The translations under genes and the position numbers were made by a program. A stretch of 64,000 bases of DNA from an uncultured Lachnospiraceae bacterium (GTDB lineage Bacteria > Bacillota > Clostridia > Lachnospirales > Lachnospiraceae). Positions 51,793-64,000 of this stretch are shown here, piece after piece. Position 1 is the first letter of the stretch, and every line of letters begins with the position of its first letter. The notes under the pieces were generated by a model, which saw only the letters and a program-made list of their open reading frames with translations, had not been told where the DNA came from and ran no database searches. Location: positions 62,001 to 126,000 of the forward strand of contig CAMWBY010000011.1 of assembly GCA_947172645.1 (NCBI GenBank), in the 5' to 3' direction.

Positions 51793-52413
51793 CTATACAA
51801 AGGCAATCTCATATTCCTTTATCCCATATCCCAGCAACCGCATAATCCGCAGCTCGTCTTCCGCATCCAAAACGGCATTATGCGTCTCATTATACCGCTT
51901 GTCCCCGCTCAGCATTTTCAATATATTTTCGACGCCGTACCCCCGTTTCATTTTTCCGGTCTTGTAACAGTCTGCGCAGTCCGGTATGGCGCTGTTATAT
52001 TGCCGGTACGCCGCCAAGCGCATAATATCATACCATTCATACCCTGAATACTCCGGCAGATGCCTCTTATCAAAAGACGCATTGTATGCAAAAAGTTTCC
52101 GCACATGGTAAGCATCCAGCCATTGCTTGATTTGTTTTAACGTCTGCTTCCTGTCCGCAACGCAAACCCCTTTTTCGTCAAGCTTCAGTTCATTTGAATA
52201 CATTCCCCCTACTCTGTATTCCGGGTCAATTATGTAATATACCGAATCAATTTTCGTCTTCGTCTCCGTATCGGCCACCACTACGCCAATCGACATAACC
52301 TTGTCATCCCAATTCGTCTCCGTATCGATTACTGCAAATTTATCTTTATTATATGCTGCCGTCTTCTGTGGAAAGAACTGCTGCTTATCCGATTCCTTCA
52401 GCGGTATAGACAT
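51793..52413 (-). CDS. DEDDh-type 3'-5' exonuclease
   Basis: 206 residues. Exo I FAVIDTETN (Asp, Glu), Exo II LFAYNASFDKRHL, Exo III HNAVLDAEDELRIM with the His typical of the DEDDh class. Similar in form to DnaQ-like proofreading exonucleases, but with no polymerase domain. AAAGGAG at 6 nt. Its last codons lie within the right-hand direct repeat of the palindromic element. Confidence 0.9.
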   Translation of the reverse strand: MSIPLKESDKQQFFPQKTAAYNKDKFAVIDTETNWDDKVMSIGVVVADTETKTKIDSVYYIIDPEYRVGGMYSNELKLDEKGVCVADRKQTLKQIKQWLDAYHVRKLFAYNASFDKRHLPEYSGYEWYDIMRLAAYRQYNSAIPDCADCYKTGKMKRGYGVENILKMLSGDKRYNETHNAVLDAEDELRIMRLLGYGIKEYEIAFV

Positions 52414-52583: not shown

Positions 52584-53879
52584 TTAATTGATGCTCAGCC
52601 CCGCGCTTGCATATCCCGCAACCGTATTAATCAGCGTCAGCCCACTGGCTGTTGCCGAAAATACCAACATCAGACGCGTCTGGGCTGTGACTGGAATATT
52701 GAGCCCTGTCAGCGCACCGTTTAACAGTGTCCCCACAGATATCACCCCGGAAAGCGACGGCGCCAGATTAATCAGCGTTCCGGCAATCGGAGTAAATACA
52801 TTGTTCGGCGTCGTAGACTGATATATCTGCGCATTTACCGTAACAGTGGAACCTACCAAGGAAAGCGCTGCCGTCGTACTGAAAAATGCGCTGAATGAGG
52901 TAATAGTGCCGGCACGCGGAACCTGGAATGCAAAGTTAGAAAGCGTTCCGCTGGCATTTGTAATATCTATTGAGGAACCTAACAGCGTAAGTCCCTGCGC
53001 ACTGCTTCCAAAACCGACGAAAGCAGGAAGTCCCGCGAGTCCTCCGGCAATTGTCGTCAAAGAAACCGGAAGCCCCGACGCAAAGGGAATGATTGCGCCT
53101 GTGCCTGCGATACCCGTAGGTCCGGTTGCACCGTCGGCTCCGGTAGCTCCCGTGGCTCCCGTTGCACCTGTGGCGCCTGTCGCTCCGTCGGCTCCTGTAG
53201 CTCCTGTGGCTCCCGTTGCACCGTCGGCCCCCGTTGCGCCTGTGGCTCCCGTTGCTCCAGTGGGGCCTGTTGCTCCAGTGGGGCCTTCATCGCCCGGACA
53301 TCCCTTCGGGCCCTGAATACCGATTGGGCCGGTTACGCCCTGGATACCCTGTGGCCCGGTCACACCCTGAGGGCCCATGGAACCGGTGGGGCCTGTCGGG
53401 CCTGTCGGACCCGGAATGCCTCTGGGGCCTTGCGGGCCTATATCACCCTGCGGCCCCATCGGGCCTGCCGGGCCAACCGGACCTGCCGGGCCTTGTGGGC
53501 CGACATCACCCTTAGGCCCCTCGCAGCCTGGGTCTCCTTTCGGGCCAATATCACCGCGAACGCCCTGGATACCCTGAATGCCCTGCGGCCCTGCGTACCC
53601 TCTCGGCCCGGCATACCCCCTTGGGCCAGTGTTTCCGGTAGGCCCTACCGGGCCTGTATTTCCTCTGGGCCCTCTTGCGCCAGGAGCGCCGGGAATCCCC
53701 TGTGGCCCCATCGGCCCCGGGTCACCTCTGTCACCCTTAGGGCCGGGACAGCCGGTATCTCCCTTGACACCTTGCGGCCCCATCGGCCCCTGCTCTCCTC
53801 TTGGCCCAGCCGGCCCACGTTCACAGCACGGAGGATGACATTGATTCTGACAGTAATTACATGAATTATTTTGATTCAT
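52584..53879 (-). CDS. Collagen-like protein with BclA-like C-terminal domain (A)
   Basis: 431 residues. A Cys-rich start ([13 protein letters not shown]) precedes about 79 uninterrupted Gly-X-Y triplets (22 to about 258), ending in many GAT/GAD triplets. The remainder is a Gly/Ala/Thr-rich globular domain as in exosporium BclA proteins. This layout fits a spore-surface fibre. The Thr-rich triplets are typical glycan sites. A sigma-K-like promoter lies upstream (53940-53966), which supports late mother-cell expression. Confidence 0.92.
53110..53290. repeat. Degenerate 9-bp tandem repeats encoding Gly-Ala-Thr/Asp
   Basis: The coding strand repeats GGAGCCACG-like nonamers that encode about 20 GAT/GAD triplets. 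Such arrays change copy number by slippage, so the collagen length may vary between strains. Confidence 0.7.
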
Positions 53880-55289: not shown

Positions 55290-56075
55290 TTACCTGCACA
55301 GCTTCTCTATACTCAGGCTCATATCAATTTTAGAAGCCCCCTCCGAAGAATGCCACGCAAAGAACAGTGCGGAACCGGTTGGTATCTCCACAATAAAATA
55401 TCTTGATACCGTCAGCATTTCTTTTCTTTTTGCCGACTCAGCATATGCACTGTACAGAGGCTGCTTGCACTCATTGAATATTGGCGTGAGTTTTATAAAA
55501 CCATGCCTTCTCATCACCGTGGATACATAATAACTGACAGCATAGTAACCCGGAGTCAGCGCAACGGAAAAGTTATTGCAAGGAGTGATATTGTGGGTTA
55601 CGTCCGGTATGTCTATTTTGAGTGGAAGACTTGCGCTTTCCGGCAAAATCATGTTCTGCCCTGAAAAAGTTGCAAAAATACTGCTTTGCGGATAACCTGG
55701 CGGCCCCGCAGGGCCGCGCGCTCCTGGCTCTCCTCTCGGCCCCATCGGCCCGGTGGCTCCCTGAGGCCCCTGGGGCCCGGTAACGCCTTGCGGGCCGGTT
55801 TCTCCACGCTCACCGGGGCATCCTGGCGGCCCCGGCTCTCCCCTCGGCCCCATTGGCCCCGGCTCTCCGCGTTCATAAGAAATACCGCAAAAAGAACCGT
55901 CTTCCTCTGATTCCATGACGTTCGTATTCCAGGAAGAATCTGATGCGGTTGTATCTGTCTTATATATATCCTCATGGGGAATCTGCGCTGCATTCTGATT
56001 ACGATTCCTGTTAGAAACCCCCATACCGAACAGATTCGGCGGATGGAACATCCGGTTCGTATTATAATTATTCAA
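55290..56075 (-). CDS. Collagen-like protein with jelly-roll-like C-terminus (B)
   Basis: 261 residues. TTG start at 56075 with GAGGTGG 5 nt upstream. An Asn/Pro-rich leader (1-69), 20 Gly-X-Y triplets (70-129), and a C-terminal domain (about 130-261; [19 protein letters not shown]) of beta strands, probably a C1q/TNF-like fold. No signal peptide, as in exosporium proteins. Second member of the collagen/glycosyltransferase locus. Confidence 0.88.
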
Positions 56076-56234: not shown

Positions 56235-56738
56235 TCATGGCTTTGGATAACGGCGAACCATTTGCCTCACGAACCTCTCCACCATACGCGGATTATACCC
56301 AATGGCATTATTCTCCTTGAAACCCCTATAGGTATCTGTCAAATCATTTAAGTTCCTATCATCGAGACATCTTTCCAAATGCCTTTTCAGATTGGATGCT
56401 GCAGTCCTCCTCTCTGCATCAGTTTGTCCGTACTGGATAAGCGCAACGCATTTCCTCATGTCCGCAGCTATCTTCCAGTATTCTATCCCCCAGGATTCCG
56501 TTTTCTTATCAGGAAAAACCTCCGGGCTTTCTAAATCCCCCAGAAATTCTTTCGCTTCTTTTATGGCATTCTGCAGACTTCCAGGCACATCTCCCGGCGC
56601 ATCCTCAAGGTCGCTACGATATTCAAAACCGCGGAATTCTGCATTTGGATACTTGTCGACCTGCTCGCGACATTCCTCCCATTCATTAAAAATTCCGGTC
56701 TTTCTTCCGTTTTTTACTGCGTATATCTTTTTCTTCAT
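56235..56738 (-). CDS. Viroplasmin-domain protein without RNase H
   Basis: 167 residues. Residues 1-42 (YAVKNGRKTGIFNEWEECRE, NAEFRGFE) match the viroplasmin (Cauli_VI) domain that begins many RNase HI proteins and binds RNA:DNA duplexes. The RNase H domain is absent; the remainder is a helical region I do not recognise. Last gene of the right-end operon, 51 nt after the PLD-like gene. Strong AGGAG site. Confidence 0.78.
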   Translation of the reverse strand: MKKKIYAVKNGRKTGIFNEWEECREQVDKYPNAEFRGFEYRSDLEDAPGDVPGSLQNAIKEAKEFLGDLESPEVFPDKKTESWGIEYWKIAADMRKCVALIQYGQTDAERRTAASNLKRHLERCLDDRNLNDLTDTYRGFKENNAIGYNPRMVERFVRQMVRRYPKP

Positions 56739-56789
56739 AATCCATCGTCTCCTGTCGTCAGCATTTTTCCATATTTCCCACCAAATTTT

Positions 56790-58250
56790 TCACCGTATTT
56801 TAGGCAGCCATTTTTGAAATAAACCAGAATTCCGGGAATCCGTATAATACCATTGTTTTCGTTCACTGTCCCACTTTGCGCCTAATTTTTTTACTTCTTC
56901 TTTATCTTTGTATGGGCAATTGATGTAATATCTATTTGTTCCTGCGGCGTCTGCCGTTCCGTGGACATATGTATCCGGCTGTGCAAGGATTTCATGAAAA
57001 AATTCAATCAGCTGCCCTGCCAGCCCGCAGTCTTCTATTATCATATAATGGTTTACTTTCGAATATTTTCCTCTATAGCTTATGCCGCTTATATTTGCCG
57101 TATCAGCATTATCTATAGACACATCTCCGTATATAAATTCTGTTGGCGTATAATTGCCTGTACTGACAATAATCATGTTATCTGCAACGATGAACCTTGC
57201 ATTGACATTTTTGTTCACGCTATAGCTGCATGTGGCAAGCTGCTCCGCCTGCCTGATTAATTTTTTAAACTTGGCGCTGTCTGCAGGCGCCGATTGGCCC
57301 CGCAAATCCCCGTTCGTATCCACATATGTCCGTGAAAGGCATTTCACCTGGATTCCTTGTCTGCACTTCTCGAAAACAGCTCCAAAGATTCCCCGTCTTA
57401 ATATTCTATTTTCTATAGCGCGATAATTGAATGCGCTCAAATCTTCCGCACATATATAGATTCTCTCTTGTGCGTTGGAAATGATATCTATCATCTTTTC
57501 TTCAATTTTAATTGGTGAATCCTGGATAAACGGTGCGGTAAAATAATTCATCCCCACCTTTCCGCCATCCACTGTTTCCATTTCGTAATTGTAATTGGGA
57601 TGTGGGTTCTGCCAATCAGGCAATCTGACAGAATGACTCAGCAGATTAGAAAAAAACATTTCTGTTATTTCACATGACGCCGGCGTGTCTTCTGCAAGCA
57701 GCATGAGTTCAGCCTTGGGCCGATATCCTACGGCAAGATTAGAAGATGTAAGCCCTGTCACCGTCTTCCCGTCTTTATATTTGATATAAACAGAATTATT
57801 ATGCAGGCTATATGGCAGCTTTTTCCCGAAAGAGGACGCGTATCTCAGCGTAGATTTTCTTACGCAAGTATGGTCAAAAAGCCGCAATATGTAGTTTTCG
57901 TTATTCAATCTTTCGATATCTTCATATATCCCTTTTGCCAATGAATATACCGTAACATTATGACGGTAACTCTTATTTGTTCCATATTCGTATATGTCTT
58001 TAGGGTGATTATCATCATAGCCATCCAATGGGATTGAAACAACGGTGACCTTGATTCCCCGATTTGCAAAAGCTTTCATTTTCTCGTGTAAGACACTGTT
58101 ATTATACAGCCGCATACTCAAATATATTTCCGAGATATCGTCTGCCTGCCTGTCTAAAAAATCTATAAGTTTTTTTAATAACCCCATGCTGGAGCCCCAT
58201 TGATAAAATTTGGGGTCGCTTGGCACTTCAAGAAATAATTTAGGTTCCAT
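56790..58250 (-). CDS. Protein with degenerate PLD motifs and a DUF5710-like tail
   Basis: 486 residues from ATG 58250, with GGAG 9 nt upstream. Two repeats have the PLD shape: SVYIKYKDGKTVTGLTSSNL (about 160-185) and NARFIVADNMIIVSTGNYT (about 340-365). The HxK residues are replaced (Ser/Tyr and Asn/Arg), while the second Asp remains; catalytic activity is doubtful. The last 40 residues (NCPYKDKEEVKKLGAKWDSE) match the DUF5710 type. Overlaps the phosphoesterase gene by 11 nt. Confidence 0.75.
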   Translation of the reverse strand: MEPKLFLEVPSDPKFYQWGSSMGLLKKLIDFLDRQADDISEIYLSMRLYNNSVLHEKMKAFANRGIKVTVVSIPLDGYDDNHPKDIYEYGTNKSYRHNVTVYSLAKGIYEDIERLNNENYILRLFDHTCVRKSTLRYASSFGKKLPYSLHNNSVYIKYKDGKTVTGLTSSNLAVGYRPKAELMLLAEDTPASCEITEMFFSNLLSHSVRLPDWQNPHPNYNYEMETVDGGKVGMNYFTAPFIQDSPIKIEEKMIDIISNAQERIYICAEDLSAFNYRAIENRILRRGIFGAVFEKCRQGIQVKCLSRTYVDTNGDLRGQSAPADSAKFKKLIRQAEQLATCSYSVNKNVNARFIVADNMIIVSTGNYTPTEFIYGDVSIDNADTANISGISYRGKYSKVNHYMIIEDCGLAGQLIEFFHEILAQPDTYVHGTADAAGTNRYYINCPYKDKEEVKKLGAKWDSERKQWYYTDSRNSGLFQKWLPKIR

Positions 58251-58926
58251 AATGCTCTTCTCCATAAGGAAAAATCAACCATTCTCCCACATCCGTAACA
58301 CGATAGTATTTGTTATTTTCCGTATCAATTTTTATAACAGGAATCATGCCGCTTTCCAGGACAGTCCCGTCTATGTAGTAATGGCTTGCCCCATCAAAGT
58401 AAATATCATGGAAATCCGGATTACCTGCTATCTCAGCCGTTCCTATATGTCCTGCGACAATCTTCATGTCATTATAAAATCTGCCCGTCTGTGCCGGATA
58501 TTTCTCCGTAAAGGTATAATCGTCGGTCCCCCACTCCCATAAGTCTTCCGCCTCTTCATCAATTCCTGCATGGACGAATATTGTGTTTGCCTCGGAATAA
58601 TATCTTGGCAGATTCCGCATCCACATGAGATATCCCGCATCATCCTCTGCATGGCCATAGGCATCTTTATCATCGTTTCCGCCGATGGTCCACCTGCCGT
58701 CACACGCCATGTCCTCATGATTCCCACAAAGGGCTATCACCTTATCACTGCCATATTCGTTTTGTAACTGCATGATTTTATGAAGGACGCCGTAATCATC
58801 CGGCCCATGTATATAGTCGCCTAAGAATATAAGCTTATTATCACCGGACAAGTCAACTAATGACAGTGCGTGTTCCAAAGCATCACAGCAGCCGTGTATG
58901 TCACTCATTGCATAAATGTAACTCAT
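58240..58926 (-). CDS. Calcineurin-like metallophosphoesterase
   Basis: 228 residues. Metal-binding motifs SDIHGCCD, LGDYIHGPDD (Arg of the GDxxDRG motif is absent), and CGNHEDM, with HAGIDEE later. This resembles bacterial Ser/Thr phosphatase or ApaH-like enzymes. Target could be a protein or a nucleotide such as a signalling molecule. One nt separates it from the HpaII-like gene. Confidence 0.92.
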   Translation of the reverse strand: MSYIYAMSDIHGCCDALEHALSLVDLSGDNKLIFLGDYIHGPDDYGVLHKIMQLQNEYGSDKVIALCGNHEDMACDGRWTIGGNDDKDAYGHAEDDAGYLMWMRNLPRYYSEANTIFVHAGIDEEAEDLWEWGTDDYTFTEKYPAQTGRFYNDMKIVAGHIGTAEIAGNPDFHDIYFDGASHYYIDGTVLESGMIPVIKIDTENNKYYRVTDVGEWLIFPYGEEHYGT

Positions 58927-58927
58927 T

Positions 58928-60112
58928 TTAATCCGTTTCCTTTTTAGATTCTTCTGAACCGCCTTTTAATTGTAAATTCATAAGTTTTATCTGAAAATTA
59001 AGATTAAGAAACATCTCTTCATTCACCTCATACAACTTCATAAAATTACCCTTGCGTTTATCGGTACTAGGCGGGGCAAATTTCGTATTGCCAAGCAGAT
59101 ACTGTTCAAAAGAATTTCGGTTATAAATACGATTGGCCAATATTTTCCCGTCTTTCGTAACAAATAGAAAACCGCCATTCACCTTATCAAGTCCATTCCA
59201 CGGCGTTGCCGGTTTCATTCCCAACGCGCAGGCGCACAAAAATTTCTTTAGCTTATACTCATATAAGGTTGTATCCCCATATTTTTGCGGGTAATGTTCT
59301 CCCATACTTTCCAATAATCTTTTACACTGTCCAATGCCCTCATTGCCACTGCCTTTGTGTTGGTAGAAGTGCAGCAACATGTCTGCAAATATTTCAGGCA
59401 TATCCCTGTCTACCATGGTAAGATTTCTTTTGAAAATATCCGTATTATTTCTAAACCGTCCATCAAATGACAGTTTCCCATTGTACTCCCTGATTTTTGC
59501 CATTCGGTTATTGATTGTATTGGCCCCGTTTATCTTATTGATTTCATCCATCTGTTCACGGGACAGTCTTTGTGGCGCTTCAACTTTATATACAAAGTTT
59601 GTTGTCTGCGTGGCATTGACAAGGGTAGGAAGTCCGCCAATAAACGATTTAACGGAAAATCCCAAATCATGGGACGAATGGGTGTCATCTATCTGCATGA
59701 AGATATCATTTGATTCATCCGAATCCGCTTTCATTGTTGTTACCCTCATGTATTTTGCAAAGTCTTCAATCTCCGGCATTCCAAATTTGCCGTCCTTATT
59801 GTTATCCCTTTTTTTCTGGATTTCCTTCAGAAGGCATTCCGCCTGTTCTTCAATCACGCTTCTGTCGATGGCAGTTATCCTTCCCGCCTGTCCTCCAACA
59901 ATGACCACCTTAGTCCCCTTAATCACATAGTCTGTCTGCTCCCCCTGCTCTTTGCGCATCATTTTATTAATCGGATAATAAATGTTTTCAACTTTTTCCA
60001 GTTTCTCATCTGTTGCCTGAACTGTCCCTTGCGCAAGCAGCTTCAAAAAAACATACAATTCGGACCATTCACCTTTATTGCCTACCCATTCTCTGTCCTT
60101 TTTTTTCGCCAC
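58928..60112 (-). CDS. HpaII-family type II restriction endonuclease
   Basis: 394 residues from GTG 60112 (AAGGAG at 7 nt). Landmarks I associate with R.HpaII (RE_HpaII): GNKGEWSELYVFLKLLAQG near the start, YYPINKMMR, and DLGFSVKSFIGGLPTLVNAT near the centre, followed by TNFVYKV. HpaII cuts CCGG. No DNA methyltransferase is in this window, and it sits in an operon with protease and nuclease-like genes, which is unusual for a type II system. The methylase could be upstream of the window or absent. Confidence 0.78.
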   Translation of the reverse strand: MAKKKDREWVGNKGEWSELYVFLKLLAQGTVQATDEKLEKVENIYYPINKMMRKEQGEQTDYVIKGTKVVIVGGQAGRITAIDRSVIEEQAECLLKEIQKKRDNNKDGKFGMPEIEDFAKYMRVTTMKADSDESNDIFMQIDDTHSSHDLGFSVKSFIGGLPTLVNATQTTNFVYKVEAPQRLSREQMDEINKINGANTINNRMAKIREYNGKLSFDGRFRNNTDIFKRNLTMVDRDMPEIFADMLLHFYQHKGSGNEGIGQCKRLLESMGEHYPQKYGDTTLYEYKLKKFLCACALGMKPATPWNGLDKVNGGFLFVTKDGKILANRIYNRNSFEQYLLGNTKFAPPSTDKRKGNFMKLYEVNEEMFLNLNFQIKLMNLQLKGGSEESKKETD

Positions 60113-60138
60113 ACGAAAACTCCTTCCCCTGCATACTG

Positions 60139-60894
60139 CTAATCTACAATTCCGGCGCCTTTGCGTGCAAGCTTATCCGCAAGCTCATTGGCCCGCTTAT
60201 CTGCAAGCGCTTTGGCCGAATTTCCTCCGGCCTCATGGGAGCGTCCCTCTATGCTCATGACTTCAATCTTCATTTTTTCTCTCATCTCATACATATACTG
60301 GCCGGCCGCCTGCGTCAGCTCATCTCCGCATCTGCGATAAGCCCATGCGATAATCTCACTATCATAAATAATAGTAATCTCCGGCCAACCCAAACCTTCG
60401 GCATGTTTCACCGCCTCCATACAGGCCAGCAGCTCGCCGGCGCCGCATCCCAGTTCTGCCAAATCCTTATCTTTCCCACCGCCATAAAACTTGTCTATCT
60501 TCCCGTCACATATAAGGACAACACCAAAGCCATACATCTTACTCCTTGGGTCATAAGAACCGTCCACATATGCACAGTATTTCGGATATTCCCCGACAGA
60601 AAATCCCGACACACTTAAGGCAGTATCCGGTTTCAATTGTCCCGGCATGGCCTTATACCCCTCTAACCACGTTAGAGCCTTCTTTGAAATCGGATTTCCT
60701 CTCCACTTCCCGGCTATAAATTCCTCCGCCTCATCCTTGGTAGGGAATCCATGGTAGACAGCTCTCGAAACGTTACGCATTTTCATCTCACATTCCGGCC
60801 ACGACGTAAAAATCTGCACATTCTCCCCTATCTGTGCATCTCCATTTTCTTCGTCTCCTTTTAACATAAGCACCCAATAATTATTCTTACTCAT
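60139..60894 (-). CDS. RNase H1-like protein with N-terminal extension
   Basis: 251 residues from ATG 60894 (AGGGGGA just upstream). Residues about 20-60 (SWPECEMKMRNVSRAVYHGF, then TKDEAEEFI) fit a diverged viroplasmin domain. The C-terminal RNase H domain shows the acidic set: YVDGSYD (Asp), GELLACMEA (Glu), IYDSEI (Asp), and HEAGGNSAKALADKRANELA for the last. Cleaves RNA in RNA:DNA hybrids. It begins 8 nt after the AAA+ protease gene stop. Confidence 0.88.
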   Translation of the reverse strand: MSKNNYWVLMLKGDEENGDAQIGENVQIFTSWPECEMKMRNVSRAVYHGFPTKDEAEEFIAGKWRGNPISKKALTWLEGYKAMPGQLKPDTALSVSGFSVGEYPKYCAYVDGSYDPRSKMYGFGVVLICDGKIDKFYGGGKDKDLAELGCGAGELLACMEAVKHAEGLGWPEITIIYDSEIIAWAYRRCGDELTQAAGQYMYEMREKMKIEVMSIEGRSHEAGGNSAKALADKRANELADKLARKGAGIVD

Positions 60895-60902
60895 CTTTCC
60901 CC

Positions 60903-63900
60903 CTATTCCGAACATATTCCATCGGCTTCCATCAGTTCTTCAAATTGTTTTCCTGTCAGCCTGTTCTCCTTTACCAGCACATCCGCAATCCTCTGTATCT
61001 TATCTTTTGCGTTTTCTATGATTTCTGTTGCGTTTTTCATCTCGGTCTTCAGGATTTCATTCACTTTAGCCGTATATTCTCCGACCAACGCTGACTGGAA
61101 TACTTCATCTTTACTGAGGGTAATCAACTCATCGTCTTCCATTCCAAATGCACATATCATCCGAAATGCGATATCGGTGGCATTTTTCAGGTCCGAAGAT
61201 GCCCCTGTGTTGAGAGATTTCTCTTTGCCATAGAACACCTGCTCAGCCGCACGGCCCGCCAAAGAAGCCCTGATGGCTGCAAGAAGTTCCTCTCTTGTAT
61301 AATCGGCTACATCCTCCCGGTTGGCACGCTGCATATATCCGCCATAATCCCCCCTGGACTCAATCGTGATATAGGAAGGCTTGTCGCCACTGATATAGGC
61401 CACATACGCATGGCCTGTCTCATGGATAGCCACGCTCTTGTAGTAATCCTTCGTATGCTCTTTCTTTTCACCATAATTTTGTTCCTCGAGAGCGGTCAGC
61501 AAATCGTCATCCGTCATAGTCCCTGACTGTCTTACGACATTACGGAATGCGTGTTCAAACACATTCTGAATATCTGCAAGGCTCTTTCCCGTAGTTCTCT
61601 CCGCAATACTGTGCACCGCCTCTTCGGAAACGGTCGTGATATCCCTGTCGGCAAGCATCCGAAAGATATATTGTTCACGTTCACTCTCCTTGGGAAGAGC
61701 CACATAAATTTTGTTGTCAAAACGCCTAAGCAGGGCATCATCCAGAGAAGCGCCCTCACCACTCTCCCCTCTGACTACATAGTTCGTAGCCGCCAGTACA
61801 AAGACCGGCTTATTGCTGTCAGCGCCACGGAAACCGTCCATCTCGGTAAGCAAAGCATTCAACATACTTTCTGTGTGATGGGTATTCTCTGAGCCGGTCC
61901 TCTTCTTGCCAATCGCATCAATCTCATCAATGAATATAATGGCCGGCGCATATTTCCTCGCCGTTTCAAATATCCGCCTGATATTCGCCTCGCTCCCACC
62001 TACAAGGCTATTCATAAGCTCCGTTGCACTGGTTGGGAAAAAGGTCACATCTGATTCACCTGCCATAGCCCTGGCAAGCATTGTTTTTCCGGTTCCCGGA
62101 GGCCCGTAGAGAAGGAGCCCCTTCGGCGCCCTGCCGCCTTTCCTAAGAAATTCTCCTGGTTCCGTAAGATACTTCACAAAATACCGAAGCTCTTCCTTCG
62201 CCATTTTTGCTCCGATGACATCGTCAAATTTGACGCTTGGCCGCTCTGCATCGGATGGGGCAGAGCTATACTCCTTAAGGGCGGCAAGCAAATCCTCATC
62301 CGTCATAGTCCTTGACTGTCTTGCGGCATTACGGCATGCGAAGTCAAACATGTTCTGAAGTTCTGCAAGGCTCTTTCCCGCAGTCCTCTCCGCAATATTG
62401 CGCACCGTCTCTTTGGAAACAGTCGTAATATTCTGCTTCGCAAGCATCTGAAGAATATATTGCCCTCGTTCACTCTCCTTGGGAAGAGCCATATATATCC
62501 TATTGTCGAAACGCCGAAGCAGAGCGTCATCCAGCGAATCAATCCCATCGTTCTCCCCGCCCACACCATAGTTCGTCGCCGCCAATACAAATACCGGCTT
62601 ATTGCTGTCGGCGCCACAAAAACCATCCATCTCGGTCAGCAGGGCATTCAGCATACTTTCTGTGCGATGCATATTCCCTGAACCGGTTCTCTTCTTGCCA
62701 ACCGCATCGATTTCATCAATAAATATAATAGCCGGCGCATATTTTTTCGCCGTTTCAAATATCCGCCTGATGTTTGCCTCGCTCTCGCCTTGATATTTAC
62801 CCATAAACTCCGTTGCACTGGTCTGGAGAAAGGCCACGTCCGATTCGCCTGCCATAGCCCTGGCAAGCATTGTTTTTCCGGTTCCCGGAGGTCCGTAGAG
62901 AAGGAGCCCTTTCGGCGGCCTGATGCCGTTCTTAACGAACTCTCTTGGTTTCGTAAGATATTCCACAAAATACCGAAGCTCTTCCTTCGCCTTTTTTGCT
63001 CCGATGACATCGTTAAATTTGATATTGGGCCGCTCTACATTGGACAGGACTGAAGACATATCCTCGGATTCCACGGCCGTTTCCAGTTTGAGGTCATAAA
63101 ATTCAATCTTACCCACATCATAGCGTTTGTCAGCAAATCCTTTTCTCGTCTTATAGGTCAATATCTGATGCCTGCGGGCGAGTGTGTCCATTACCTGCTG
63201 GCAGCATACATCCCAATAGGCCGCCTCCAGTTCATCTTCATAAAATTCCCTGTCAATAAAGCCTCGCGCGCCTCTTTTCATCAGGTCGTTTTTCTCTCTG
63301 TCCGAATACTTATATTCGTTCTTCCCGCCGCATAAAATGTATATCGGAATATCTTTGTTTTCTCCTATCGTGCGCAAGAACACATTACTTCCCACTGTTC
63401 TTGCATCTGCGATATTCAGGCTGTTTTCCGTACTGTCCAATCCCAGCGTATAATCAATTACCGCAAAAAGAACCTTCCCGGAACGAAGCATTTCCATAAA
63501 TCCGTTACAGTCCGTTGTGTCCTTCACTGTGATGCCGTTCTCTTTGAGAGAGCCGGAGGGCTCGTATTCCATGGCTCCCAATACAGGAATCACACCGTTT
63601 TTTTCACCGGAATATAATTTCCTGACCTCATCCGTTGCTCCCGTGAAGTCACAGTCCCACTCTATCTTTTGAAGCCCTTCGATGTTGTCCGGCACCATCT
63701 TCTGCATCATCAAATACATAAATTCAAGTAATTGCTGGTCAATCAGCTTTCCGGCCAGCTTGGATGCATTCCTTGCATCGGCGCTTCCACCCATGGAATA
63801 AAGCACAGTCTTCGCCAGTTTACTCTTCCCGGTACTCAGATTGTATCCAAACCCCCGCTCTGTTTGTATCAATTGGTTCTCCACATCCTTTTCCACCACC

Positions 63901-64000
63901 CGCCTGAGGGCATCCGCCTTGAGATGGTTAAACATGATGACGGTATGAGAAGACATCCTTGACAGTATTTCAGGAGGAAAAAACGGTTCCTTTGTTTCCG
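60903..64000 (-). CDS. Tandem-AAA+ FtsH-like metalloprotease, soluble, 5' end outside window
   Basis: At least 1017 residues counted from ATG 63956; the frame is open beyond it to the window edge and that ATG lacks a good ribosome site, so the true start is probably upstream. About 300 residues of an unrecognised N-terminal domain (a Rossmann or receiver-like pattern near VLFAVIDYTLGLD), then two AAA+ modules of about 265 residues with Walker A YGPPGTGKT (near 350 and 615) and Walker B IIFIDEIDA in each. The M41 protease follows: HETGH (near 845) and TGASSDLKNAT with the third ligand Asp. Unlike FtsH, no membrane helix is visible. Confidence 0.85.
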   Translation of the reverse strand, partial: ETKEPFFPPEILSRMSSHTVIMFNHLKADALRRVVEKDVENQLIQTERGFGYNLSTGKSKLAKTVLYSMGGSADARNASKLAGKLIDQQLLEFMYLMMQKMVPDNIEGLQKIEWDCDFTGATDEVRKLYSGEKNGVIPVLGAMEYEPSGSLKENGITVKDTTDCNGFMEMLRSGKVLFAVIDYTLGLDSTENSLNIADARTVGSNVFLRTIGENKDIPIYILCGGKNEYKYSDREKNDLMKRGARGFIDREFYEDELEAAYWDVCCQQVMDTLARRHQILTYKTRKGFADKRYDVGKIEFYDLKLETAVESEDMSSVLSNVERPNIKFNDVIGAKKAKEELRYFVEYLTKPREFVKNGIRPPKGLLLYGPPGTGKTMLARAMAGESDVAFLQTSATEFMGKYQGESEANIRRIFETAKKYAPAIIFIDEIDAVGKKRTGSGNMHRTESMLNALLTEMDGFCGADSNKPVFVLAATNYGVGGENDGIDSLDDALLRRFDNRIYMALPKESERGQYILQMLAKQNITTVSKETVRNIAERTAGKSLAELQNMFDFACRNAARQSRTMTDEDLLAALKEYSSAPSDAERPSVKFDDVIGAKMAKEELRYFVKYLTEPGEFLRKGGRAPKGLLLYGPPGTGKTMLARAMAGESDVTFFPTSATELMNSLVGGSEANIRRIFETARKYAPAIIFIDEIDAIGKKRTGSENTHHTESMLNALLTEMDGFRGADSNKPVFVLAATNYVVRGESGEGASLDDALLRRFDNKIYVALPKESEREQYIFRMLADRDITTVSEEAVHSIAERTTGKSLADIQNVFEHAFRNVVRQSGTMTDDDLLTALEEQNYGEKKEHTKDYYKSVAIHETGHAYVAYISGDKPSYITIESRGDYGGYMQRANREDVADYTREELLAAIRASLAGRAAEQVFYGKEKSLNTGASSDLKNATDIAFRMICAFGMEDDELITLSKDEVFQSALVGEYTAKVNEILKTEMKNATEIIENAKDKIQRIADVLVKENRLTGKQFEELMEADGICSE

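Follow-up and report, generated by a model that had tools for sequence, protein, structure and literature searches.

Does a gene cluster that combines a large AAA+ protease with nuclease-type proteins form one functional unit, and what could such a unit do? The question is raised by a stretch of DNA of 64,000 nucleotides from an uncultured Lachnospiraceae bacterium (hereafter the window; contig CAMWBY010000011.1, positions 62001-126000; host genome 3.87 Mb, 98% complete). At its end six open reading frames (ORFs) lie on the minus strand at 56235-64000, according to the ORF list of the window. An earlier note, made from the letters alone, had read them as an operon of six genes serving a single function. 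We found that the protease (G1), an RNase H (G2), a Cauli_VI protein (G6) and mostly a stand-alone receiver recur together in other contigs, and that the space between them appears to hold exchangeable genes. From this we infer, tentatively, that the operon is an accessory conflict system that is mobile and works by proteolysis, perhaps at RNA:DNA hybrids; defence is the leading candidate reading.

The gene cluster of the window

The six genes and the domains of the first one were assigned as follows, in window coordinates.

60903..64000, minus strand: G1, C-terminal ~64% of a large AAA+ protease (Pfam); the gene continues to window-equivalent 65732
63186..63602, minus strand: receiver (REC)-fold domain in G1, P0001 residues ~716-854 (predicted structure)
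62253..63029, minus strand: FtsH-type AAA module A of G1, approximate limits (Pfam, Walker A motif)
61473..62240, minus strand: FtsH-type AAA module B of G1, approximate limits (Pfam, Walker A motif)
60933..61442, minus strand: M41 zinc protease domain of G1 (Peptidase_M41 1.8e-29; HETGH intact)
60139..60894 (alternative start 60915), minus strand: G2, Cauli_VI and RNase H (Cauli_VI 9e-10; RNase_H 6.5e-5, under the cut-off)
58928..60112, minus strand: G3, HpaII-family endonuclease, GTG start, accessory (RE_HpaII 2e-94)
58240..58926, minus strand: G4, calcineurin-type metallophosphoesterase (Metallophos 1.6e-11)
56790..58250 (alternative start 58265), minus strand: G5, PLD-like with C-terminal DUF5710, accessory (DUF5710 8.6e-16; PLDc_2 2e-4, below the cut-off)
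56235..56738, minus strand: G6, Cauli_VI and a short conserved C-terminus (Cauli_VI 3e-16)

The intergenic gaps were 8, 26, 1, -11 and 51 bp, given ATG starts at 60894 (gene 2) and 58250 (gene 5). With these starts the ORFs and the spacing described in the earlier note were confirmed. The partner domains that it had named, RNase H-like, HpaII, phosphoesterase, DUF5710 and viroplasmin (Cauli_VI), were likewise recovered, the RNase H and PLD matches staying under the cut-off. Stretches resembling ribosome-binding sites precede most of the six genes, as judged by eye. A seventh gene of the cluster, located upstream of G1, encodes a stand-alone receiver (Response_reg 7e-8, Pfam).

A recurrent core with a variable slot

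A scan of genome contigs yielded five loci, of which L010 matched by the Cauli_VI domain alone and was omitted. The other four, from Lachnospiraceae/Clostridia (L006, L007, L008 and L009; L008 and G089 refer to one contig), make up five loci for comparison together with the window. Gene presence was scored by BLAST, window included. The protease was present in 5/5 loci. RNase H was found in 4/5; the candidate in L009 was unconfirmed (hhalign probability 37%, no Pfam match) and was not counted. The Cauli_VI protein was found in 4/5 loci, with an additional C-terminal match in L009, and the stand-alone receiver in four of the five, L008 being the one without it. The phosphoesterase occurred in three loci out of five. 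HpaII and PLD/DUF5710 were each found in 1/5 loci, namely in the window only, and we therefore regard both as accessory. The position of the HpaII gene was empty in L006, L007 and L008, and a DUF488 gene stood at the place of the PLD gene in L006; the contigs of L006 and L008 end near the cluster, and further genes may lie past their ends. We read the stretch separating the core genes as a slot with exchangeable content, which holds HpaII and PLD, DUF488, or nothing.

The flanking ORFs of L006-L009 had no match to the window outside the operon, in a comparison that covered the downstream flank of the window operon only. Because the core recurs in four other contigs whose flanks do not match the window, we concluded that the protease, RNase H, the Cauli_VI protein and mostly the receiver form a recurrent core beyond chance. 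The conserved neighbourhood for which the earlier note had proposed a search exists for the core, and the six-gene set is not kept. A single function of all six genes was not supported as the note had put it: 0/4 relatives have all six, and all four were negative for HpaII and PLD/DUF5710.

The cluster could also be an accidental assembly of independently useful genes. The lack of conservation of two of the six genes would fit this, as would promoter-like sites within the stretch, whose number is not clearly above chance (33 found vs 25 expected, standard deviation 5). The gaps of -11 to 51 bp, and the joint presence of the protease, RNase H, the Cauli_VI protein and mostly the receiver in most of the five loci with differing flanks, argue against it. 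We consider an accidental cluster very improbable.

Domain architecture of G1

The window edge cuts G1. With 2 kb more of the contig the full gene was seen at L002:4903-9732 on the minus strand, encoding a protein of 1,609 amino acids. The order of its domains is an N-terminal Cauli_VI domain, a Clp-type AAA+ module (AAA_2), a receiver-fold domain, two FtsH-type AAA+ modules and the M41 protease; the portion inside the window starts with the C-terminal end of the Clp-type module. The earlier description of gene 1 as AAA+/AAA+/M41 was correct for the two AAA modules and M41 that were matched, but the gene was cut and has three AAA+ modules plus Cauli_VI and a receiver fold. The Walker A motif is GPSGVGKT in the Clp-type module (outside the window) and GPPGTGKT in both FtsH-type modules, and the HETGH zinc site lies at P0001 residue 1442. 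FtsH-type modules A and B are 77% identical to each other. One such module is present in L006 and L007, and two in the window, L008 and L009. For the Clp-type module, the best matches among solved structures (PDB sequence search) were ClpE, ClpA and ClpC. No membrane part was evident in G1, membrane segments being judged by eye only, and a scan for tandem repeats in G1 found none. For P0001 residues 46-397, a candidate degenerate Clp_N, the structure prediction was unusable (mean predicted local distance difference test, pLDDT, 35.8; predicted template modelling score, pTM, 0.23).

The domain in the middle of G1 has the receiver fold in the predicted structure. It had no Pfam match, and hhalign against the stand-alone receivers gave a probability of 0.55%; its identity was accepted on the predicted structure only. 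The beta1 acidic pair of phosphorylatable receivers is absent from it (family alignment, by eye with the structure), and the Asp at the end of beta3 is near-invariant (family alignment, by eye). The receiver-fold region was conserved throughout the wider protease family.

AAA+ proteases usually belong to one of two types, Clp-type rings docking a separate peptidase and membrane-bound FtsH-type enzymes, and G1 joins both types. A Clp module, a receiver fold, one or two FtsH modules and M41 in one protein with no evident membrane part would be novel as an architecture and as a means of coupling signalling to proteolysis. In the literature on related domain combinations we found no Clp-receiver-FtsH-M41 fusion, with thin coverage of subscription journals; as the coverage was limited, the evidence for novelty is weak.

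The partner proteins

The Cauli_VI profile matched three operon proteins (G1, G2 and G6; Pfam), and by this profile match the domains may be putative RNA:DNA hybrid-binding domains. The Cauli_VI domain of RNase H1 binds hybrids, and Cauli_VI with RNase H in the RnlA family has been proposed to target DNA-RNA duplexes (available part of PMC3710099). In the Cauli_VI domain of G1 a loop resembling the RNA-binding loop is kept and the RNase H1 contact residues are only partly kept (alignment). The RNase_H match of G2 reached 23.6 bits, just under the cut-off of 25.8 (Pfam). In the alignment of its relatives the acidic catalytic residues were present, as judged by eye, and the RNase H call is supported by their conservation. 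For G2 and G6 neither Pfam nor PADLOC gave a HEPN or RnlA match. A role in binding PP2A phosphatase subunits has been described for the Cauli_VI domain of ANKLE2 (available part of PMC13179284). Since the operon also encodes a phosphoesterase (G4), the parallel is striking; we treat it as only a lead.

Selection on the core and its movement between genera

The ratio of nonsynonymous to synonymous substitution rates (dN/dS) was estimated for the receiver, G1, G2, G4 and G6 against L006, L007 and L008 where present; the HpaII and PLD genes have no near relative. The values were 0.16-0.19 for the receiver, 0.18-0.22 for G1, 0.24-0.41 for G2, 0.12-0.14 for G4 and 0.31-0.54 for G6. These ranges exclude L009, which is near saturation (G1 0.10, receiver 0.40). 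We concluded that purifying selection acts on the core genes.

G1 of the window and G1 of G089, which belong to different genera, are 82% identical with a proportion of synonymous differences (pS) of 0.33. For the partners in the same two genomes, pS was 0.59 (G4), 0.51 (G2) and 0.29 (G6). All 12 chromosomal reciprocal best hits between the stretches compared of the two genomes (~460 kb and ~440 kb) had 24.8-67.1% identity and pS of 0.72-0.90; some of them may be paralogues, and even the best pairs were saturated. The contrast between pS 0.33 for G1 and 0.72-0.90 in the 12 chromosomal pairs indicates that the protease moved horizontally between genera. Vertical inheritance was rejected on this contrast for this pair of genomes. 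G1 was matched at E 1e-100 in only 2/145 genomes, own included.

The sequence bias of the host bears on the time of arrival. GATC is near-absent in the host, with 74 sites vs 1,600 expected in the 464 kb sampled. The host genome carries a DpnI-family gene (G000:C7:3920-4459, 2e-72) and gave no match to the DpnII or MutH/Sau3AI families; GATC avoidance has been published for genomes with DpnI-like enzymes (available part of PMC4687349). G1 contains no GATC, vs 7-33 in four relatives. That G1 is without GATC in a GATC-purging genome suggests that the arrival of the operon was not very recent. The whole window holds two GATC sites (6948 and 32026) vs about 210 expected; in its scarcity of GATC the host genome differs from five of six same-genus stretches.

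The HpaII-type nuclease and the PLD/DUF5710 protein

G3 is a full-length RE_HpaII member (Pfam 2e-94). No C5-cytosine methylase (PF00145) was matched in the host genome, by a search that was positive in 10/14 controls. Among the other methylase classes D12 alone was tested, with one weak match (34 bits). In the order, HpaII-family matches were found in 21/383 genomes, own included. At ten of the 15 HpaII loci that were fetched, a C5-cytosine methylase was adjacent or fused (Pfam; ten ORFs preselected by motif), and two further loci (L150, L152) had a methylase by motif only. No methylase was nearby at the remaining 3/15 (window, L140 and L146). CCGG occurs 388 times in the window vs 391 expected. 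G3 retains D136, D143, S153 and K155, the probable active-site residues, and four positions that are invariant in 14 relatives are changed (K134, N274, H328 and, conservatively, R376). From these residues and the lack of a methylase match, G3 may be controlled, differently targeted, inactive, or balanced by a methylase of another class.

A shift of G3 specificity to GATC was considered in view of the near-absent GATC and the orphan nuclease. It was set aside as unneeded, because the DpnI-family gene and the published GATC avoidance explain the scarcity of GATC. Divergent HpaII genes were also seen at L186 and L187 (G127) and at L188 and L189 (G170), where GATC was very low (1 vs 71 and 7 vs 96 expected). 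One count over the fetched stretches used 14 of the 20, the six under 15 kb being omitted.

G5 matched DUF5710 (9e-16) and, weakly and under the cut-off, PLD (2e-4); its HKD motifs look degenerate by eye. The PDB sequence search gave nothing for the HpaII (G3) or the PLD (G5) protein.

A gated suicide module would give the orphan nuclease a role. HpaII would be toxic because host CCGG is unmethylated, the unfoldase-protease or a partner would restrain or degrade it, and infection would free it. The missing match to a C5-cytosine methylase in a 98% complete genome, the lack of CCGG avoidance in the window and the kept probable catalytic residues are in line with this. On the other side, the protease core is found without HpaII in 4/4 relatives, so that a suicide module could be at most an add-on. 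The four changed residues mean that activity or specificity may be lost, and the HpaII loci L140 and L146 are also without a methylase nearby; a methylase of another class may also exist. We regard the suicide module as improbable.

Relatives of the protease in the phylum

The wider Clp-receiver-FtsH-M41 family was searched in genomes with a few candidates scored per genome. An N-terminal alignment found members in 6/392 genomes of the order, one of them only a fragment, next to the end of its contig. The Clp-to-FtsH alignment gave near-full-profile members in 3/391 genomes of the class, 3/299 of the family and 3/382 of the phylum, own counted each time. The class search listed 19/391 genomes and the family search 18/299; the remaining matches stop at or before position 325 and resemble ordinary Clp proteins. 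We concluded that the wider family is sparse in the phylum.

The distant members L017, L018, L019 and L021 have the Clp AAA, the middle region, the FtsH AAA and M41, without the N-terminal Cauli_VI domain. Near the proteases of L017 and L018, TIR, kinase, FHA and PP2C genes were seen by eye, with PADLOC matches for the kinase and TIR. L021 is the most telling distant member. Close to its protease are an RNase H (7e-12) and an Mrr nuclease (3.8e-19; PADLOC defence candidate PDC-S02 1.3e-107), and a protein near the protease is related to one near the L009 protease (E 1e-11). Less close to the protease are a PIN7 gene, a conjugative coupling-protein gene (T4SS-DNA_transf 1e-39) and, ~6 kb off, a phosphoesterase-like protein without Pfam match that shares 42.5% identity with a Metallophos protein found in L018.

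A divergent protease of the family, L138 (G817:C9), has an altered Clp Walker A motif, GPPAVGKT; CCGG occurs 13 times in its stretch vs 125 expected.

Genomic surroundings

Defence-type genes were found near 2/5 loci, where flanks were judged by eye and selected genes were scanned. These are a YhcG-type nuclease gene ~9 kb upstream of the window operon (YhcG_C 1.3e-64; PADLOC PDC-S02 3e-120) and a MunI-type restriction gene ~8.7 kb downstream of the L007 operon (L007:24406-25032, minus strand, 2.3e-63). Within the cluster, PADLOC models matched only the shared AAA modules of G1 (IetA, DolB and others) and the HpaII nuclease.

About 2 kb upstream of the operon, outside the window, stands a gene for a serine recombinase (Resolvase 7e-22, Recombinase 2e-23):

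L002:12089-13762 and L002:14215-15339, minus strand: serine recombinase and two small sigma-like genes, upstream of the window

The one sigma-like gene that was scanned matched Sigma70_r4_2 at 2e-5, just under the cut-off. The recombinase and the sigma-like genes upstream of the operon suggest an integrated element near it.

The operon could be a maintenance or transfer module of its carrier mobile element, e.g. for replication or excision control, which does not protect the host. The recombinase gene and the conjugative coupling-protein gene of L021 are consistent with such a module. In the flanks of L006-L009 no recombinase was seen by eye, those of L006 and L008 being cut by contig ends. 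Moreover, no phage or plasmid record covered 80% of the 905-residue N-terminal query, and scanning viral contigs by pattern gave nothing related to the receiver region; these queries represent the Cauli_VI branch, so that more distant members may have escaped them. With this evidence we give the element module a low probability. In viral contigs, a query of 572 residues kept 80 loci, the matches listed for them stopping at or before residue 363. Two partial plasmid/phage matches that were opened (H30, H1) had two Walker A-like motifs and no HExxH, and were set aside as ordinary Clp-like.

Downstream of the operon two genes encode collagen-like Gly-X-Y repeat proteins (52584-53879 and 55290-56075, minus strand; Pfam Collagen 4e-38 and 7e-11). 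A short protein at 51793-52413, minus strand, has weak similarity to exodeoxyribonuclease X (7.7e-4) and no Pfam match.

Proposed function

In the proteolytic conflict system that we propose, G1 would form stacked AAA+ rings. The Clp-type module would engage and unfold a protein, and the FtsH-type modules would thread it into the M41 chamber. The Cauli_VI domains could gather G1, G2 and G6 at an RNA:DNA hybrid of an invader's replication or transcription, or on each other. At such a hybrid RNase H (G2) would remove the RNA strand, and G1 the proteins bound there. The stand-alone receiver, the receiver-fold domain of G1 and the phosphoesterase may gate the activity, and the slot between the core genes would take up extra effectors, here the orphan HpaII-type nuclease and PLD/DUF5710.

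In its favour are the core shared by five loci, with flanks that do not match the window, the low dN/dS of G1 and G4, the transfer between genera, the patchy occurrence and the variable slot. The serine recombinase gene upstream, the defence-type nuclease genes ~9 kb from two of the five loci, the neighbours of the L021 protease, the orphan nuclease in a genome that gave no C5-cytosine methylase match and has CCGG at a near-normal frequency, and the proposed targeting of the RnlA family point the same way. Several observations weigh against this proposal. In human RNase H1 a lysine pair contacts DNA, and this pair is absent from 5/5 G1 copies (alignment). The Cauli_VI domain of ANKLE2 was reported not to bind hybrids (available part of PMC13179284). 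The defence-type genes near the window operon and L007 sit ~9 kb off, outside the operon, and the genes that flank the L006, L008 and L009 clusters look ordinary by eye. The negative phage, plasmid and viral-contig searches described above count on the same side. Finally, the proteases of L137, L139 and L241 have ordinary chromosomal genes around them, and at most two small proteins as partners (by eye); because of these ordinary neighbours, a general regulated protease is suggested.

G1 would then be a regulated quality-control or stress protease degrading damaged or stalled complexes. Cauli_VI would tether it to R-loops or stalled replication, RNase H would resolve the hybrid, and the phosphoesterase and receivers would be ordinary signalling. 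Two small paired proteins beside the proteases of L137, L139 and L017, and the position of L241 alone among metabolic genes (by eye), agree with this, as do the purifying selection and the conservation of the receiver-fold region across the family. The rarity of G1 in close relatives (2/145 genomes, own included), the transfer between genera and the swapped cargo speak against a quality-control protease, and we consider it somewhat unlikely.

The conflict system may also be thought of in a more far-reaching form, as a new immune machine. It would consist of one polypeptide in which a protease is combined with a Clp ring, two FtsH rings and a pseudo-receiver as switch, and which Cauli_VI would tether to invader RNA:DNA hybrids together with RNase H. 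Lineage-specific, interchangeable nucleases would be added, including a methylase-free restriction enzyme gated by the machine. In this complete form the proposal is unlikely. If the operon is immune in function, it would tie proteolysis directly to the surveillance of RNA:DNA hybrids, and would exemplify how a restriction nuclease can be taken up while its methylase is left behind.

Relation to known systems

Judged by its domains, the operon is not a strict FtsH, IetAS, FtsH ternary system, RnlAB, nor a complete restriction-modification system, each of which shares parts with it. Like FtsH (TIGR01241), G1 has an FtsH-type AAA and M41 with HExxH. The match of the window part of G1 begins at profile position 154 of 598 and reaches 538.4 bits vs a cut-off of 600, and the FtsH N-terminal family was not among the 13 families listed for the N-terminal part of G1 (Pfam). 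Unlike FtsH, G1 adds Cauli_VI, a Clp AAA+, the receiver fold and a second FtsH-type AAA.

The FtsH/Cdc48-like AAA of G1 matches IetA models (PADLOC, 2.8e-82), and the NCBIfam IteA model gave 244.9 bits for the window part of G1, below the cut-off of 510. IetAS is defined by a subtilisin-like partner, and no subtilisin-like domain was found in the operon genes (Pfam). In its available part, PMC10924106 mentions an FtsH-like domain for IetA only.

The FtsH-containing MoxR-vWA ternary conflict systems have two FtsH-type AAA, the first inactive, with MoxR and vWA partners (available part of PMC7159879, eLife 2020). Like G1, their protein carries two FtsH-type AAA and belongs to an operon suspected of a role in conflict. 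As far as that source goes, G1 differs in that Walker A is intact in each of its FtsH-type modules, and the Pfam results for the operon genes contained neither a vWA nor a MoxR-type partner. RnlA/RNase LS shares the Cauli_VI and RNase H module and the anti-phage setting (available parts of PMC3710099 and PMC5308261); in contrast to RnlA/RnlB as described there, no HEPN or RnlB was seen in the operon, which has an AAA+ protease instead. With HpaII restriction-modification it has the endonuclease G3 in common, but no C5-cytosine methylase lies beside G3 or was matched in the host genome.

PADLOC and the literature searched gave no equivalent of the set, which agrees with the earlier note, whose author knew of no such system. 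The AAA_2 module of G1 resembles the second AAA module of ClpA/ClpB/ClpC, but instead of docking ClpP it is fused to its own protease. The architecture of G1, together with the mobile core, is unusual and worth testing.

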